Source: an uncultured Sunxiuqinia sp.
Lineage (GTDB): Bacteria > Bacteroidota > Bacteroidia > Bacteroidales > Prolixibacteraceae
Length of the DNA stretch: 64,000 nucleotides
Direction: 5' to 3'
NCBI RefSeq assembly: GCF_963678245.1
Contig: NZ_OY782767.1
Coordinates: 62,001-126,000 of the forward strand
The position numbers and the translations under genes are program-made. The first letter of the stretch is position 1. The number at the start of each line of letters is the position of its first letter. The notes beneath the pieces were generated by a model, which worked only from the letters and a program-made list of their open reading frames with translations, was not told the DNA's origin and searched no databases. Positions 185 through 12,292 of this stretch are shown here, piece after piece.

Positions 185-1576
185 TTAACAAAACACATCG
201 GACTGCCCTCGGTTGACCCGGTCGACCAATTTCCTGGCTCTTTCTGCTGGTAGTCCTTCCATATCGGCAATGGTGCTTTCTATCAATTGAATGCCTGTTT
301 TTTTTGTTTCGGGCGACGCATAATTGTTGACGTACTCCATAAAACTCGACAAAGCGTTTGGACCGCAGTGTGCTTTTATTGTTCCGGGTTTAGCGATATC
401 CATGAAATCTTGTCCTGTCCGGCCTAACCGATAACACCCTGTGCAAAACGAGGGGACATAGCCCATTTGTGCTACATCGCGGATAACTTCATCCAACGAG
501 CGGTGATCACCCAGGCTAAATTGTCCGGAAATCTCATCGTCGTGTTCGTATCCTCCTGGGTTGGTTCGGCTGCCGGCAGATATTTGCGACACACCCAGTG
601 AGAATGTCTCCGTTCGTGTTTTTGCATTTTCCCGTGTCGACATGATGATACCGGTGTAGGGAACAGCCAAACGGAGAATAGCTACTATTTTTCGAAATTC
701 GAAGTCGCTAACAACATAGGGTGGATTTGAGGCCATGTCGGAACCGGTTGCCGGTTCTATACGCGGAACACTTATCGTATGTGGCCCAACTCCAAAGACC
801 CTTTCCAACTCGCCGATGTGTTGCATCATTGCCAACAAGTCGAAGCGGTAATCATATAGTCCTAACAGAACGCCAATACCTAAATCATCGATACCTGCTT
901 CCATCGCACGATGCAAGGCCGTTACACGCCAAGCGTAATTCATTTTAAGTCCACCGGTATGCACTTTTTTATAGGTTGGCTGGTGGTAGGTTTCCTGAAA
1001 AATTTGGTAAGTTCCTATCTTTTCGTTTTTAAGCAATTTGAACTCCTCGACAGTGAGCGGAGCGACATTCACATTCACCCGTCTGATTTCGGCATTGTTG
1101 TGCTTGGCTTCATAAACAGAACGAACAGAATCCAGTACATATTGAAAATCGTGGTTTGGATAGGATTCACCCGCTACCAGCAGCACTCGTTTGTGTCCCT
1201 GCTTGATCAGCATTTCTGTTTCTTTAACGATCTCCGGCTGAGTTAATGAGCGTCGAACAATTGCTTTATTTTTAGCCCTAAATGCACAGTAGGTGCATTC
1301 GTTAGCACATAGGTTCGAAATATAAAGAGGTGCAAAAATAACTAAGCGCTTTCCGTAAATAGTATCTTTAATATGATTTGCCGTTTGGAAAAGTTTTTCC
1401 AACTGCACCGGATCGGTCACACTGGTTAAGATGGCCACATCCTGTAAGTTTAAGCCTTTCATTTCTCTGGCTTTTACCAATACTTCGTTTACCTCTTCGG
1501 CAGAAGGGGTGCTGTGTTTATCAAGAGTTTTACTTATTTCTTGTTCGTTGATAAACGATTGTTTTGCTGTATGCAT
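185..1576 (-). CDS. hydG: [FeFe]-hydrogenase maturase HydG (radical SAM tyrosine lyase)
   Basis: HydG cleaves tyrosine with S-adenosylmethionine to make the CO and CN ligands of the H-cluster 2Fe subcluster. The 463-residue product has the radical SAM motif CANECTYC (Cys90, Cys94, Cys97), the family block VPRIEPATGSD, and the C-terminal auxiliary-cluster motif CTGC at 378-381 followed after 22 residues by Cys404. All key cysteines are present and there is no frame break. It lies 6 bases after the TM1266-type regulator gene and is followed by aspA, so the three look like one operon. It appears fully intact, in contrast to the hydrogenase structural genes 4-7 kb away. Confidence 0.97.
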   Translation of the reverse strand: MHTAKQSFINEQEISKTLDKHSTPSAEEVNEVLVKAREMKGLNLQDVAILTSVTDPVQLEKLFQTANHIKDTIYGKRLVIFAPLYISNLCANECTYCAFRAKNKAIVRRSLTQPEIVKETEMLIKQGHKRVLLVAGESYPNHDFQYVLDSVRSVYEAKHNNAEIRRVNVNVAPLTVEEFKLLKNEKIGTYQIFQETYHQPTYKKVHTGGLKMNYAWRVTALHRAMEAGIDDLGIGVLLGLYDYRFDLLAMMQHIGELERVFGVGPHTISVPRIEPATGSDMASNPPYVVSDFEFRKIVAILRLAVPYTGIIMSTRENAKTRTETFSLGVSQISAGSRTNPGGYEHDDEISGQFSLGDHRSLDEVIRDVAQMGYVPSFCTGCYRLGRTGQDFMDIAKPGTIKAHCGPNALSSFMEYVNNYASPETKKTGIQLIESTIADMEGLPAERARKLVDRVNRGQSDVFC

Positions 1577-1582
1577 GGTCTG

Positions 1583-1837
1583 TTATTTTTTTGCTAGTCC
1601 TGATTTTACTTTAACGCCATTGATGGCTCCAAGGCGACCGGTAAGTTTTCCTATTTCGTCGGTGTTGCTGTTTACAACTAATGTGATAACTGATGTATTG
1701 CCTTTTATTTTGGGAATGCCAGTTCTGGCAAGAATTAAGTCGGCATGCTCGCTAAGTATTTCGTTTACAACACCTGCTGACTGTTCACGATCTTCAATAA
1801 TTATTCCGACAAAACCTAGACGATTCTGTATATTCAT
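1583..1837 (-). CDS. TM1266-type iron-only hydrogenase system regulator (ACT-like)
   Basis: The protein has 84 residues and opens RLGFVGIIIEDREQSAGVVN, with GIPKIKGNTSVITLVV in the middle. This is the pattern of the small ACT/NikR-C-like family named after Thermotoga TM1266, found beside hydE/hydG and annotated as a putative iron-only hydrogenase system regulator. It has no DNA-binding domain that I can see, so a ligand-sensing or protein-binding role is as likely as direct transcription control. It is the first gene of the TM1266-hydG-aspA operon. The start codon is preceded by an A-rich stretch rather than a Shine-Dalgarno sequence, and by a long leader with strong pairing potential. Confidence 0.85.
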   Translation of the reverse strand: MNIQNRLGFVGIIIEDREQSAGVVNEILSEHADLILARTGIPKIKGNTSVITLVVNSNTDEIGKLTGRLGAINGVKVKSGLAKK

Positions 1838-2163: not shown

Positions 2164-3252
2164 GTGAAAAATGTACAGGAAATCGTTGGTCAGAAATCTT
2201 TTTCGAAAGCTGATTTATCAACTCTGTTGGAAGCAGAAGGGCAGGATCTGCAATTGCTTTTTGAGGCTGCGCAGGCTCAAAAACTCGAAGTTGTTGGGAA
2301 AAAAGTATTCTTTCGTGGTTTAGTAGAGTTCTCTAATATTTGCTCCAAAGACTGCCTTTATTGTGGAATCAGGAAGAGTAACGAAAAGGTTGTTCGTTAC
2401 GAAGCGACCGATGATGAAATTCTGGCTGCCTGCCGTTTTGCGTGGGAGAACCGGTTTGGCTCAGTCGTTCTGCAATCGGGTGAGTTGTCGTCACCTGTGT
2501 TTGTCAATCGGGTTGATCGGTTGGTGAAATCCATCAAAAAGCTGTCAAATGACGAACTCGGAATTACGCTTTCATGCGGAGAACAGAATCCGGAAACTTA
2601 TCAACGTTGGTTTAATAGTGGAGCTCATCGGTATTTGTTGCGTATTGAAAGTTCAAATGCAGAGTTGTATCAAAAAATTCATCCTAATAATTCGTTGCAC
2701 TCCTTTGAAAAGCGACTTGATTGTCTCAATTCGTTAAAAGAGTGTGGATACCAGGTCGGAACCGGAGTGATGATCGGCTTACCTTTTCAGGAAATTGGGC
2801 ACTTGGCAGAAGACTTGCTTTTTCTGAAAAAACTGGATGTCGACATGGTTGGCATGGGGCCCTATATTGAGCATGAAGACACACCACTTTATCAATTTCG
2901 TCAGCAATTGGCAACTAAGCAGGAACGCTTTGATTTAGCTTTGAAAATGATTGCTGTTTTGCGATTGCTCATGCCAGATATTAATATTGCTGCTGCTACA
3001 GCATTGCAGGCGATTGATCCGGTGGGAAGAGAAAAAGCCCTGAAAATTGGAGCGAATGTGATTATGCCAAATCTAACTCCTTGCGATTTCCGGAAGGAAT
3101 ATCAGTTATATGAAGATAAACCTTGTCTGGACGAAGATGCAGAACTTTGCCGCAATTGCCTGGAGGCTCGAATTGAAATGGCCGGCAGCGAAATTGGCTA
3201 TGGAGAGTGGGGCGATTCAAAACATTTTAAAGGGCGAACTGCTAAAGATTAA
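2164..3252 (+). CDS. hydE: [FeFe]-hydrogenase maturase HydE (radical SAM)
   Basis: HydE is the radical SAM maturase that acts with HydG and HydF in building the H-cluster. The 362-residue product carries CSKDCLYC (Cys60, Cys64, Cys67) for the SAM-binding 4Fe-4S cluster, followed by YCGIRKSN, and has the usual family length. The reading frame starts with GTG; no upstream ATG lies in frame, and GTG KNVQEI fits the family N-terminus. It is divergent from the TM1266-hydG-aspA operon, with 326 bases between them. No frame break is seen. Confidence 0.93.
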   Translation: MKNVQEIVGQKSFSKADLSTLLEAEGQDLQLLFEAAQAQKLEVVGKKVFFRGLVEFSNICSKDCLYCGIRKSNEKVVRYEATDDEILAACRFAWENRFGSVVLQSGELSSPVFVNRVDRLVKSIKKLSNDELGITLSCGEQNPETYQRWFNSGAHRYLLRIESSNAELYQKIHPNNSLHSFEKRLDCLNSLKECGYQVGTGVMIGLPFQEIGHLAEDLLFLKKLDVDMVGMGPYIEHEDTPLYQFRQQLATKQERFDLALKMIAVLRLLMPDINIAAATALQAIDPVGREKALKIGANVIMPNLTPCDFRKEYQLYEDKPCLDEDAELCRNCLEARIEMAGSEIGYGEWGDSKHFKGRTAKD

Positions 3253-3267
3253 AACACTTCCCATTGA

Positions 3268-3747
3268 TTAGAACAAGGTCTCTTTATAATTGGCATTCTC
3301 CATTTCGTGACGCAGCAACCACTTTTTTCGCCAAATTCCCCCGGCATAACCCACAAGTTTGTTATTGCGGCCAATTACCCGATGGCAAGGAACAACGATT
3401 GAAAGCGGATTTTTGGCATTTGCTCCTCCTACGGCTCGCACCAGATTTTTATCGCAAAGTAAGTCAGCCAACTCGCCATAGGTAATTTGTCTTCCGTACT
3501 CAATTGCTTCCAATTGTTTCCAAACTCTTCGTTGAAATTCAGTTCCCGATGGTTGAATTGGTAAATCGAATTGAAATAAACGACCTGCAAAATACTCGTC
3601 AAATTGCTCAGTGATTAGCTTTTTTAGTTTGGGACAGAAATCGGTTGTATTGACTTCGTGTTCCGTAAAATGAATTCGAGAGATAGCGTTTTCTGATGAA
3701 TTAATCTGCAGCAATCCAATTGGAGATATGTATGTAATAGATGGCAT
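3268..3747 (-). CDS. ogt: Methylated-DNA-[protein]-cysteine S-methyltransferase
   Basis: A suicide repair protein that moves the alkyl group from O6-alkylguanine to its own cysteine. The acceptor site VVPCHRVIG places the active cysteine at residue 121, and the family's helix region RRVWKQLEAIEYGRQITYGE precedes it. The start ATG at 3745-3747 gives MPSITYISPIG, the normal N-terminus, and is preceded by AAAGGTC. An in-frame ATG ten codons earlier is less likely. The gene converges on hydE with 15 bases between stops and has no evident link to hydrogenase maturation. Confidence 0.93.
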   Translation of the reverse strand: MPSITYISPIGLLQINSSENAISRIHFTEHEVNTTDFCPKLKKLITEQFDEYFAGRLFQFDLPIQPSGTEFQRRVWKQLEAIEYGRQITYGELADLLCDKNLVRAVGGANAKNPLSIVVPCHRVIGRNNKLVGYAGGIWRKKWLLRHEMENANYKETLF

Positions 3748-3998
3748 TGACCTTTTTGTCTTTATTCTAGTTAACATTTAGGTAACGTAGAATTAACAAA
3801 AAGGTTTGAATAAAACTGAGTTTTAAAAGAAGAACATTTTTGCGGTTCTTTTTTTATTGGTCGATTGGTACTATCGGTTACAGTTGTTTGCCGATTGCAA
3901 ACATCCACTTGGAATGCATTCGTTTTTCAGCTAAATTTCGATTAATGATCGGCTTTTGTCAAACGGTTCGACGAAAAAACAGGTAAGATTAATTAAAA

Positions 3999-4034: not shown

Positions 4035-4047
4035 GAAAGATTTTTAG

Positions 4048-5837
4048 TTAAAAGCGATCTCTTGGAGTATACTTCGAGTGTAATAAAAGATGAGATTTTG
4101 CTCCCAGTGGTTCGCCCAGATAGTCTTGATAAATTTTAAGTACTTCAGGATTTTCGTGAGACTTTCGCAGGGGCATATTTTTATCTTCGGCATAAATTGC
4201 TTCGGTCCTTTTTTGCCTGATCTCGGGGCTTGTAGGAATCGGCTGTCCTCCGCCTCCCAGGCATGCTCCCGGGCAAGCCATAATTTCAATAAAATGATAG
4301 TCGCTGGTTCCTTTTTTACGGCGTCCATTACTTTTTTAGCATTCACCAATCCGTGCCCTATCGCGCATTTCAGTTCAATGCCATCCTGAAAGATCCAATC
4401 TTTTTGTGGATGATCAATTTTAATACTTGCTTCTTTTTCGCCCTTCATACCTCGCACAGGAATAATATCGAGGTTTTTAAACGGAACTTCGCGGCCGGTA
4501 ACTAATTCGTAGGCAGTTCGGAGTGCGGCTTCCATTACTCTGCCGGTAGCTCCCAAAATAGCACCGGCTCTTGTCGATTCTCCCATAAGACGGTCGTATT
4601 TGGCATCTGGAAGTTTGGCGAAATTGATACCGGCTTGCTTGATCATAATGGCCAACTCACGGGTGGTCAGCACATAGTCAATATCTCGAAAACCACTGTC
4701 ATGCATTTCGGGGCGGTTGGCTTCAAACTTTTTGGCTGTGCAAGGCATGATTGAGACTGAAACAATTTTATCAGGTTCTATTTTATTGGCTTTTGCATAG
4801 TATGTTTTTACTAACACTCCGAACATTTGCTGAGGCGACATACACGTTGAAAGGTTCTCCAAAAACTCGGGGTACATGTGCTCAATGTACTTAATCCATC
4901 CTGGAGAACAAGACGTTGCCAGCGGAAGCTTCACTTGCTCGTCTTTCTCGGCAACCATTTTTTTGAGCCTGTTTAAGAGCTATGTTCCTTCTTCAATAGT
5001 CGTGAGGTCGGCTGTAAAATCGGCATCCAAAACCGAGTTAAAGCCCAGATGTTTGAGTGCTGATACCATTTTGCCTGTCACCCGTTCGCCAACTTCCAGT
5101 CCGAGTTCTTCGCCAAGCCCAACGCGTATGGCCGGAGCTGTTTGAACAACCACATGCTTTTGTGGATCAGAAATGGCATCCCAAACTTCTTCAATATAGT
5201 TGTGTTCAACCAAGGCACCGGTAGGGCAATGATTAACACACTGTCCGCAATTGGTGCACACCACATCATTCATCGCTTTTTCAAAAAAGGTAGCAATTTT
5301 CATTTCATCGCCTTTATAGGCAACCGTGAGCTCATTTACCCCTTGCATTTCAGCACAGGTGCGAACACAACGCTGACAGCGAATACATTTGCTATCGTCT
5401 TTTATGATTGAAGGTGAAAACTGGTCGATGGTATAATTTTTCAGGAGAGCTAGTCGCAAAAAGTCCTGCGTCATTATTTTATATTCCGAAGCTAGTGTCT
5501 GTAGCTCGCAATTTCCGTTTTTGTAGCACTTGGTGCAATCAGCATTGTGTTCAGAAAGTAATAATTCGATGATGTGTGTACGCGAGTTTCTTACTTTCAA
5601 ACTATTGGTGTGAATTTCCATTTCTTCCTCACAAGGAGTCGCGTATGCCGCAGCCAGTCGTTTTTGTCCGGCGACTTCAACCACGCACACCCGGCAATTT
5701 CCAGCAATGCAAAGGTCTTTATGGTAGCAGAGTGTTGGAATAATTATTCCGGCTTTGTTTGCAGCATCCAGTATTGTTTTTCCTTTTTCAATTTCAAGCT
5801 GAAAACCGTTAATCGTGACATTTATTTGATTACTCAT
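4048..5837 (-). pseudogene. hydA: [FeFe]-hydrogenase catalytic subunit HydA, broken by one stop and one frameshift
   Basis: Restored, this would be a 596-residue hydrogenase of HydABC/HndD type. In order it has an N-terminal 2Fe-2S domain (CYHKDLCIAGNCRVC), an HxxxC cluster (HNADCTKCYKNGNC), two 4Fe-4S motifs (CIRCQRC, CTNCGQC), then H-cluster loops TSCSPGW, MPCTAKKFE and EIMACPGACLGGGGQP. Codon 286 is TAG (4980-4982) in the middle of EEGT-stop-LLNRLKK, where relatives have Glu. Near the third loop an A run (4312-4317) is one base short, so the frame slips just before MACPG. Two normally invariant glycines also read Arg. Translation as written would give a 285-residue iron-sulfur fragment without an H-cluster. 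Sequencing error remains possible. Confidence 0.85.
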
Positions 5838-5854
5838 TGCTTTTCCTTTTGGTA

Positions 5855-7042
5855 TTAGTAAATCATTTCTTCCCTGAAATTTTCGACAATGGAACTGAAC
5901 GAATTAGCAACTGATTGCCCCAGTCCGCACTTGGCCGTCAGTTGCATGGTTTCGGTAAGTTTAAGTAGTTTGTTGAGATAGTGAGCCGGCTTTTTACCTC
6001 TTTTTACCGCTCTTATTCCACTGTGAAGTTGTTGGCAACCCACGCGGCAAGGGGTGCATTGTCCGCAGCTTTACTCGCGAAAAAAATCCAAGTAATTGCC
6101 CAGTACATTGTACGTCGAACGAGAGCTGTTAAACAGAATCATGGAGCCTCCGGTGGGTAATGAAATACCAGTGAGTTTTCCCCGGTAACCAATTGTTGTT
6201 TTTTCGAAGCGTTTGTGGGGGACCAAAAAACCGGAAGCTCCGCGAACCTGAACGGCCTTGGTGTTGCCATCGCCAAATTCAGCAACAAAATCCTGTAAGC
6301 TCATTCCCAATTCCAGCTCGTAAATATCAGGCTTTGGTGTATCTCCCGAAACGGAAAATAGCTTTGAGCCTCGAGAATACTGCACACCCAGATCGTAGAA
6401 TTTTTTTGCTCCGTACTTGAAAATGGTAAAAGCGTGTGCTAGCGTTTCTACATTATTCACAACAGTGGCTTTTTCCAGATATCCGAACGAGGTTGGGTAG
6501 GGTGGTTTGTTTCGAGGTTCGCCCCGCTTGCCTTCCATCGACTCAAAAAGTGCTGTTTCCTCGCCGCAAATGTAGTCACCGCTGCCAAGGAATATTTTTA
6601 CCTTAAAATTGAGACCTGCTTCTTTGCAGCAGTGTTCAAATTCGTCAATTACTTTTGTTAGTTCGGGAACCAGAAATTTATATTCGCCCCGCAGATAAAT
6701 AAAACCTTTTTGCGAACCAATAACATGGGCGCAAACTGCCATCGCTGTTAGCACCTTATAGGGAACTTCCGAAAGAATTTCGCGGTCTTTAAATGTTCCC
6801 GGTTCTCCTTCGTCGGCATTGCATATAACGTATTTTTTATCTGATTGGTCTTCGGCTGTTAATTTCCAATTTAAGCCGGTTGGAAATCCTGATCCTCCGC
6901 GCCCTTTAAGTTCCGAACTCATCAATTCGTTGATCAGTTCCTGAGGTGATCTCTTTAAGGTTTTGTCGAGAATTTTTTTCCAGTCGTTGTCATTTTAAAA
7001 AATGAAATTGGCTCTTTTTAATTGATATGTCGCTGCAACCAT
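5855..7042 (-). pseudogene. hydB: NADH-binding NuoF-like hydrogenase subunit HydB, broken by two in-frame stops
   Basis: Restored, this would be a 395-residue NuoF/51-kDa-type subunit that passes electrons between NADH, FMN and iron-sulfur clusters. The FMN/NADH motifs GRGGSGFPTG and NADEGEPGTFKDRE are present, then an SLBB region, then the cluster motif SCGQCTPCRVGC. The frame begins at ATG 7042, overlapping hydC. Codon 16 is TAA (6995-6997), inside an otherwise continuous leader ANFIF-stop-NDNDWKK. Codon 324 is TAA (6071-6073), directly before SCGQCTPC, in FFRE-stop-SCGQC, where relatives have Glu. Both are one G-to-T change away from GAA. Restart at the internal ATG 6925 could rescue the first stop but not the second. 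Confidence 0.85.
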
Positions 7043-7508
7043 AATGTTGTGTTTGTTTTTTAAGATAACGGGTTAAAATATCTCTGACTGAATCAGGAGT
7101 AAGTTCCGTATACACTTCTTTATTGATCAGCATTGCCGGAGCCTTGTGGCACCAGCCCAGACAGTTGGTTTTTAGTAGCGAAAATTTACCGTCTGACGTT
7201 GTCTCTGCCACGCCAATTTTCAACATGTTTTCAATGGTTAGTAAAATTTGGTTTTTGCCTTTCATCGAACAAGTGATTGTTTTGCACACCCGAATAATAT
7301 AAGTACCCATTTTCTGATATTCCAGAAACGAATAGAATGTTGCAGTGTCATAAACGTCAGCTACAGGCATGTCCAGTTCACGGGCAATTTCAATCATCGA
7401 ATGCTCCGATAGGTATTTTTCCTGTTCGACAACGCCTTGTAAAATATTGGTACGATTTCTTCCGTGTTGGCTTGCCAGGTTTTTAATCAGATCTTGTACT
7501 GGATCCAT
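6990..7508 (-). CDS. hydC: NuoE-like 2Fe-2S hydrogenase subunit HydC
   Basis: A thioredoxin-like 2Fe-2S subunit of the NuoE/24-kDa family. The four ligands are in place: CKTITC (Cys75, Cys80) and CLGWC (Cys116, Cys120). The start chosen is ATG 7508 (MDPVQDLIKNLA), because the 19 extra residues upstream do not look like the family. The reading frame extends about 23 residues past the usual NuoE end and overlaps hydB by 53 bases. If position 6997 were G, hydC would stop two codons earlier at TGA. It is the first gene of hydC-hydB-hydA and is the only one of the three without a visible lesion. Confidence 0.85.
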   Translation of the reverse strand: MDPVQDLIKNLASQHGRNRTNILQGVVEQEKYLSEHSMIEIARELDMPVADVYDTATFYSFLEYQKMGTYIIRVCKTITCSMKGKNQILLTIENMLKIGVAETTSDGKFSLLKTNCLGWCHKAPAMLINKEVYTELTPDSVRDILTRYLKKQTQHYGCSDISIKKSQFHFLK

Positions 7509-7821: not shown

Positions 7822-7829
7822 TATTTTTG
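7822..7829 (+). promoter_or_regulatory. -7 promoter element of the CYTH gene
   Basis: TATTTTTG matches the Bacteroidota TAnnTTTG element and lies 21 bases before the ATG at 7851. No good TTTG is seen at -33, so the call is tentative. Confidence 0.4.
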
Positions 7830-10957: not shown

Positions 10958-12292
10958 CTAAATCATCTCTCGAGCTTTTATTTCTAGATATTTATTAATC
11001 AGATTTACCGACACCCCTTCAGGCGTGGTTAATAGCGACATGATGCCGGCTTGTTTTAGCTCAAGTTCCATTAATTTTTTGTCATACAAAAATTTCCGGG
11101 CAATGGAATGAATGTACACTTCCTCTGCATTGTGTGAGCTTTTGTTGGCAAGCTTATGAATCTCTGTGTTTTCGAAAAATACAACCAGAAGTAGGTGTTG
11201 ACTGGCTACTTTTTTTAGGTAAGGCAGTTGCCGTCTCAGCGACGGAATGCCTTCGAAATTTGTATATAAGATTAAAAGCGAACGTTGCCTTATTTTACTA
11301 GCTATACTTGCATATAGTTTTTCGTATGATGATTCGCTAAAATCAGTTTGCTGGTTATATAGTACGTCCATGATGCACTGTAGGTGACCTGCTCTTCGTT
11401 CAGCTGGCACAAAAGAGTTTATCTTGTTCGAAAAGGAGATTATGCCGGCTTTGTCGTGCTTGATCATTGCCATGTTCGAAATAATCAGGCTGGAATTGAT
11501 TGCGTAGTCTAATAGCGACATTCCTTCGAAAGGCATTTCCATTGATCTACCCATATCCAATATTGAGATAACCTGTTGAGAGCGCTCGTCTTGGTACTGA
11601 TTAACCATTAGTGTATTTCTTCGAGCTGTCGCTTTCCAGTTCACGGTGCGTGAGTCGTCGCTGGGAACGTATCCACGTACCTGATCGAATTCGGAATGCT
11701 GTCCAACTTTTCGGATCCGTTTTATTCCGAATTCCTGTAATCGGTTCGAAATGCCTACCAATTCGAATTTTCGCATGCTGATGAAGGAGGGATAAACAGG
11801 AATGTTTTGAGCATTATTTGCTTTGATCCGACGGATGACAATTCCTAAAATGCTTGATAAATAGATATTTGATTGTCCGAACTTGTACTCGCCACGGGTT
11901 ACGGGTTTTAAGGTGTAGTCAAAAACCTTTTCCTCTCCGGAGTCAAGTTGTTGCGAAATACTAAAATTACGTTTCTGAAATTCAATGGGAAGCTCTTCAA
12001 CCAGTTCGATGTATATTTTAAACGGAAAATTATTTTGCACGCGAAAGGAAATCGGATTTTCGTCTCCAAGCGAAAGGCGTTCCGGTGTTTTTCGCTTAAT
12101 GCGAATACCTTGCTTATTTAGAAAAAGCCAAGTTAAATCGCTAACTGCTAAAGTAACTAAGGCGATGGCTGCTATTTGGGCTGTGAAAAATAACCATTGA
12201 AACGAATATCCTAGTGCAAACAGAAGAACGATAGCTATGATACCAATAAAAAATCGGTTTGAAAGATATATTTGGTTGAGAATTTTTAGCAT
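10958..12292 (-). CDS. DUF58 protein of the MoxR cluster
   Basis: The 444-residue protein has two N-terminal membrane segments (about 12-50), a periplasmic-like beta region, and the DUF58 core FDQVRGYVPSDDSRTVNWK near residues 203-221. A von Willebrand A-like domain follows, with ILDMGRSM resembling the DxSxS metal site but lacking its second Ser. DUF58 proteins occur with MoxR ATPases and are thought to act with them on assembly or activation of exported or membrane complexes; the substrate is unknown. It follows the MoxR gene by seven bases. Confidence 0.88.
   Translation of the reverse strand: MLKILNQIYLSNRFFIGIIAIVLLFALGYSFQWLFFTAQIAAIALVTLAVSDLTWLFLNKQGIRIKRKTPERLSLGDENPISFRVQNNFPFKIYIELVEELPIEFQKRNFSISQQLDSGEEKVFDYTLKPVTRGEYKFGQSNIYLSSILGIVIRRIKANNAQNIPVYPSFISMRKFELVGISNRLQEFGIKRIRKVGQHSEFDQVRGYVPSDDSRTVNWKATARRNTLMVNQYQDERSQQVISILDMGRSMEMPFEGMSLLDYAINSSLIISNMAMIKHDKAGIISFSNKINSFVPAERRAGHLQCIMDVLYNQQTDFSESSYEKLYASIASKIRQRSLLILYTNFEGIPSLRRQLPYLKKVASQHLLLVVFFENTEIHKLANKSSHNAEEVYIHSIARKFLYDKKLMELELKQAGIMSLLTTPEGVSVNLINKYLEIKAREMI

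Follow-up and report, generated by a model that had tools for sequence, protein, structure and literature searches.

A disrupted operon for a predicted non-bifurcating [FeFe] hydrogenase beside open maturation genes in a Sunxiuqinia genome

Introduction

The described systems closest to the locus reported here are Hyd1ABC of Syntrophomonas wolfei and HydAB of Syntrophus aciditrophicus, which it resembles in its genes for alpha, beta and gamma subunits (PMC7311640). This source recognises non-bifurcating HydB proteins by Thr or Ser together with Lys, Ser or Ala near NADH, by Tyr near FMN and by the absence of a GGPSG motif (PMC7311640). The HydB of the present locus has the residues of this type (Thr, Lys and Tyr, no GGPSG). 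It differs from the Syntrophomonas wolfei and Syntrophus aciditrophicus enzymes in that its operon is very probably a pseudogene and its type a prediction from sequence. The other system for comparison is the ordinary bacterial pseudogene operon, with which the locus shares independent lesions, relaxed constraint, intact near orthologues and redundancy within the genome; we found no difference from it and regard the locus as a typical case. Among the matches listed in the literature search, no title dealt with hydrogenase pseudogenes in Sunxiuqinia, which, for titles alone, is weak evidence of absence.

The host genome belongs to a Sunxiuqinia species (Prolixibacteraceae) and comprises 4.87 Mb in 11 contigs, with a completeness of 97.8%. 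Its nearest relative is S. indica, with 93% identity over HydB. We analysed a stretch of 64,000 nucleotides from this genome, hereafter the window, in which an operon for an [FeFe] hydrogenase lies close to genes for hydrogenase maturation.

Results

Lesions in hydCBA

The operon hydCBA is located on the minus strand at positions 4048-7508 and is present in pieces. The gene hydC (6990..7508), delimited by its ORF, by Pfam PF01257 and by the alignment with relatives, encodes a NuoE-like protein with a thioredoxin-like [2Fe-2S] domain. The NuoF-like hydB (5855..7042), with an FMN domain and a 4Fe-4S region, contains two in-frame stops, and hydA (4048..5837), coding for the large subunit of the [FeFe] hydrogenase, has one such stop and lacks a single base. 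The stops are TAA at hydB residue 16 (6995..6997), TAA at hydB residue 324 (6071..6073) and TAG at hydA residue 286 (4980..4982). The base is missing from an A run (4312..4317), where the hydA frame shifts; aligned with five Sunxiuqinia relatives, the window shows a one-base gap at 4312. These are the four lesions listed in the initial annotation, and we found all of them in place, with the frame kept and family-typical protein on both sides of each of the three stops. The stop positions in hydB residue 324 and hydA residue 286 are identical in all aligned homologues (58 of 58 and 56 of 56, respectively); residue 16 of hydB is variable, but codes for an amino acid in 58 of 58. The ancestral codon that had been proposed for this first hydB stop finds no support in the relatives.

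Two lesions have to be added to these four, both in hydC. According to the relatives' alignment its own stop (7053-7055) has been lost, and the frame overruns to 6990 inside hydB; moreover, a 9-base in-frame deletion lies near 7446, where 57 of 58 homologues have three extra residues. A functional [FeFe] hydrogenase requires a single uninterrupted frame for the large subunit, and hydA of the window has none: its 5' half is an open frame of 285 aa. In the downstream part (4044-4958), at what we take to be the first H-cluster motif, the sequence reads TSCSPGW, as compared with TSCCPAW in the HydA of another operon on contig C6 of the same assembly.

The operon in related genomes

In the comparison with sister genomes that the initial annotation had proposed, the hydBA lesions were absent from the orthologues of all relatives compared. 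Six other Sunxiuqinia genomes all possess open hydB (397-410 aa) and open hydA (602-605 aa). Among 59 related records, many of them MAGs, 56 have hydB in a single frame, 55 hydA and 54 both genes; these counts refer to the parts of the genes present in each record. The five exceptions are accounted for by contig ends (L061, L062, L080 and L094) and by a scaffold gap (L050). The latter, a MAG, was considered as a second case of broken hydB and rejected, the interruption at about 8863 being a scaffold gap filled with N; such a gap mimics decay in automated scans.

A survey of 140 genomes of the family, with one row per genome, identified a hydA of the same type (match of at least 75% over the N-terminal half) in 111, the window genome included. 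In 105 of these 111 the open frame has at least 595 aa. The six short ones are those of the window genome (307), of G021 (350, split by a frameshift), of G071 (526) and of G064, G078 and G099, whose coordinates are consistent with contig ends. The split hydA of G021 (L031; C81, about 97150) belongs to another genus of the family, in which the gene is open in congeners such as G135 and G137; it represents either an error or an independent loss.

Relaxed constraint and its timing

Substitutions private to one genome were counted at near-invariant columns, i.e., those at which no more than one sequence deviates, with 55-58 homologues per piece of the operon; the scan covered hydCBA apart from the short first piece of hydB. 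At 566 such columns the window genome has 26 private changes, S. indica one and any other record at most 11. Two of the 26 affect the glycine-rich stretch with which the FMN domain of HydB begins, whose residues presumably have a role there. Three are found in HydC and six in the 5' half of hydA, where one is the loss of an invariant Cys at residue 65, replaced by Tyr (5643..5645, minus strand); this Cys presumably coordinates the N-terminal [2Fe-2S] cluster. The column has Cys in the aligned homologues, and a Cys also stands at the corresponding position of the HydA structures 7q4v and 8a6t. With a panel of the 14 nearest records the window genome shows 27 private changes and the long-branch MAG L043 38; the larger panel is preferable as a test, because L043 exceeds the window genome in the smaller one. 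The HydA of contig C6 has a single private change at 298 near-invariant columns (26 homologues), significantly fewer than the 26 of 566 in hydCBA (p=3e-4). For HydG there are five at 282 columns, and up to eight in other genomes.

These counts bear on the notion that some fragment of the operon is still functional, for example HydC or the N-terminal half of HydA. HydC has indeed kept its domain and the 5' half of hydA does form its 285-aa frame, but the former has suffered the deletion, the stop loss and its three private changes, and the latter lacks the invariant Cys, as one of its six. We therefore consider partial retention highly improbable.

Up to six outgroup loci served to polarise the amino-acid changes. 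In hydCBA 47 changes were assigned to the window genome and 15 to S. indica (binomial p=6e-5). Six control genes, namely hydG (part), hydE, the methyltransferase gene at 3268-3777 and the genes at 7827, 8403 and 10380, gave 31 and 24, respectively, a weak contrast with 47:15 (p=0.03); the TM1266 gene and the genes at 10958 and 12300 were dropped from the controls as they yielded no data. In the four controls other than hydG and hydE the numbers were 16 and 13 (p=0.055 for the contrast with hydCBA). The ratio of nonsynonymous to synonymous changes on the window branch was 45:43 in hydCBA; the full set of six controls gave 39:118 (p=4e-5), and the reduced set of four gave 16:43 (p=0.004). The comparison with the reduced set is the fair one, since hydG and hydE, which contribute 75 of the 118 synonymous changes in the six-control set, have an abnormal synonymous divergence (see below). 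On the S. indica branch there was no nonsynonymous excess in hydCBA (18:27, against 37:92, p=0.19, or 13:28, p=0.50). Selection on hydCBA is thus relaxed in the window lineage.

The pairwise comparison with S. indica gave a negative result when taken alone. Values of dN/dS were 0.075 for hydA, 0.100 for hydB and 0.145 for hydC, the median of 150 genes being 0.075; the corresponding ranks among these genes (0.49, 0.70 and 0.89) are not extreme. Pairwise dN/dS alone shows no decay of hydA or hydB, and the polarised and private-site tests were therefore needed. Taken together, unremarkable pairwise values and an excess on the branch (branch dN/dS of 0.12 for hydCBA versus 0.07) indicate that decay set in late, the greater part of the divergence having arisen under constraint. 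If the excess is treated as a neutral phase, and the unpolarised 144 synonymous and 18 nonsynonymous changes are split evenly, this phase amounts to 5.4% of the branch (bootstrap 95% interval 1.4-9.8%, with a fraction of 0.004 of the bootstraps at zero or less). Random changes produce 0.057 nonsense per missense change; for an excess of about 27 missense changes, about 1.5 nonsense changes would be expected, with which the three observed ones fit. The "very recent" loss put forward in the initial annotation calls for qualification: the 26 private changes represent measurable drift over about 5% of the branch.

Assembly error and recoding

Broken genes elsewhere in the assembly were assessed by setting a 300-kb stretch from S. 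indica against 360 kb of the window genome. Of 219 S. indica ORFs of at least 90 aa, 155 were matched at 70% or more, and 151 of those were covered over at least 90%. Eleven of the 151 were flagged: five near start sites, one, located outside the window, for a stop five codons before the end and five for internal breaks, the last group consisting of hydA, hydB, a MarC-family gene and lipoprotein-like genes of 97 aa and 139 aa. Within the window, hydA and hydB are the only matched S. indica genes with internal breaks, as expected from the initial annotation, which had described the other large genes as unbroken.

The MarC-family membrane protein gene (C1:56047-56747; L120 16047-16747), which lies some 5 kb ahead of the window, is broken by a frameshift; compared with S. 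indica it shows homopolymer length differences and a high dN/dS (0.227). The 139-aa lipoprotein-like gene is matched in two frames at C1:18220-18635, likely owing to a frameshift. A further remnant, outside the 151 covered genes, is the 3' part of a hydrolase-like gene (label from sequence) at C1:198584-199042, with two in-frame stops and 90% identity to S. indica, where the copy is an open frame of 262 aa. Breaks in the compared 300 kb are accordingly not unique to hydCBA; against this background of broken genes it is the number of lesions that sets the hydrogenase operon apart.

Could the stops and the shift be artefacts of sequencing or assembly, in an organism whose operon is in fact whole? 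One of the lesions is a homopolymer length change, and in view of the homopolymer differences in the MarC gene, run-length errors could exist in this assembly; the compared stretch also contains a few more broken genes. Run-length errors, however, do not typically produce three substitutions to stop, the loss of a stop or a 9-base deletion, and neither the 26 private changes at near-invariant columns nor the nonsynonymous excess resemble random errors, the C6 HydA of the same assembly having only one such change. We consider an error as the source of the lesions very unlikely. A poor assembly had been judged improbable before, on the grounds that neighbouring genes are unbroken; the judgement stands, mainly through the substitution pattern, while the argument from the neighbours is weaker, because other broken genes sit outside the window.

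By eye, the shortened A run with the next G (4311-4317, minus strand) has the form and phase of a classical -1 slippery heptamer; this form is probably an accident of the deletion. Recoding, with readthrough of the stops and -1 slippage at this site, would allow full-length proteins still to be made, and the heptamer is the feature in its favour. It would have to deal with two types of stop at three sites in addition to a stop loss, and the invariant Cys would still be gone. We reject it as extremely improbable, because at each of the three stop sites the relatives in the comparison carry a sense codon and because constraint on the operon is relaxed.

Type of the disrupted enzyme

At the diagnostic positions the HydB of the disrupted operon has Thr, Lys and Tyr, and it lacks GGPSG, in keeping with the non-bifurcating pattern as given in PMC7311640. 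The HydB of contig C6 has Ala, Met and Phe together with GGPSG, the bifurcating pattern in the same source, and is longer at both ends. The positions were matched by motif in the alignment of these two proteins, without the T. maritima sequence. By these published residues, the product of hydCBA is predicted to have been a non-bifurcating, NADH-linked [FeFe] hydrogenase. The three pieces of its HydA score 380.6, 283.0 and 103.2 bits separately against NF040763 (group A6), the cut-off of 765 being set for the whole protein; HydA of contig C6 scores 908 bits. The group A6 label does not discriminate with respect to bifurcation, because the C6 HydA of bifurcating type passes as well.

Maturation genes and remaining hydrogenases

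The maturation genes of the window are open: hydG (185..1576, minus strand; TIGR03955, 520.5 bits with a cut-off of 312.15), the gene for a TM1266-family protein (1583..1837, minus strand; over the cut-off of TIGR03959) and hydE (2164..3252, plus strand; over that of TIGR03956). The view that HydG, HydE and the TM1266 protein are complete is thereby confirmed, all three exceeding their NCBIfam cut-offs. The genome encodes one HydF, one HydG and one HydE over cut-off, with HydF elsewhere on contig C1.

Synonymous divergence from S. indica, with a median of 0.28 over 150 genes, is 2.75 for hydG and 1.18 for hydE, and 0.29 for the TM1266 gene between them. At the nucleotide level hydG has 77% identity to S. 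indica and is nearly as distant from it as from other species (70-75%). This pattern suggests patchy recombination or replacement of the maturation genes.

A search for another hydA, likewise recommended in the initial annotation, revealed three further hydrogenases, all of them open. Contig C6 harbours a HydABC operon (L136: 5319-9816) with a HydA of 583 aa, preceded upstream by kinase-like, PHP-like and sensory-like hydrogenase genes (the labels are our own). The sensory-like hydrogenase has 458 aa and matches hydrogenase models only below their cut-offs. On contig C5 a monomeric hydrogenase of 485 aa scores over the cut-off of TIGR04105. A second HydB of the disrupted type was not found when the 97.8% complete genome was searched with the disrupted HydB. 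A loss of hydrogen metabolism, as suggested earlier, finds no support, given the three open hydrogenases and the single private change in the C6 HydA at 298 columns; from these gene contents, hydrogen metabolism appears to have been retained despite the loss of the operon. HydE, HydF and HydG most likely serve the surviving hydrogenases, in line with the other alternative raised in the initial annotation.

Discussion

We regard it as very probable, from the sequence evidence, that hydCBA is a true pseudogene operon and that the maturation genes stay open for the remaining hydrogenases. The ancestral enzyme would have been a non-bifurcating NADH-linked [FeFe] hydrogenase of the kind common in the family. 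Its function was probably lost in the Sunxiuqinia lineage of the window after the split from S. indica, and hydC, hydB and hydA would then have drifted, acquiring premature stops, a frameshift, a stop loss, a small deletion and missense changes. The genes for HydE, HydF, HydG and the TM1266 protein would have remained open because H-cluster assembly still serves the HydABC of bifurcating type and the monomeric enzyme, and perhaps also the sensory-like hydrogenase. The cell would thus have lost NADH-only H2 cycling and kept H2 metabolism, the loss of the operon presumably being tolerated owing to redundancy.

The loss of hydCBA is a case of ordinary pseudogenisation and nothing new in kind. The counts of private changes at near-invariant columns may be of wider use, as an aid to separating true decay from assembly error when reads are not at hand. 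Correction of the annotation is moderately useful: the species should be listed neither as having an NADH-linked hydrogenase nor as hydrogenase-negative.

It is conceivable, though we think it rather unlikely, that the loss marks a switch in the H2 cycling of the lineage, which would have gone over from an NADH-only to a ferredoxin-coupled (bifurcating) mode. If so, the genome would represent a natural knockout, and the division of labour between the types of HydABC could be tested between sister species of Prolixibacteraceae. S. indica, with its open operon, offers a natural comparison for the contribution that a non-bifurcating hydrogenase makes beside a bifurcating one.
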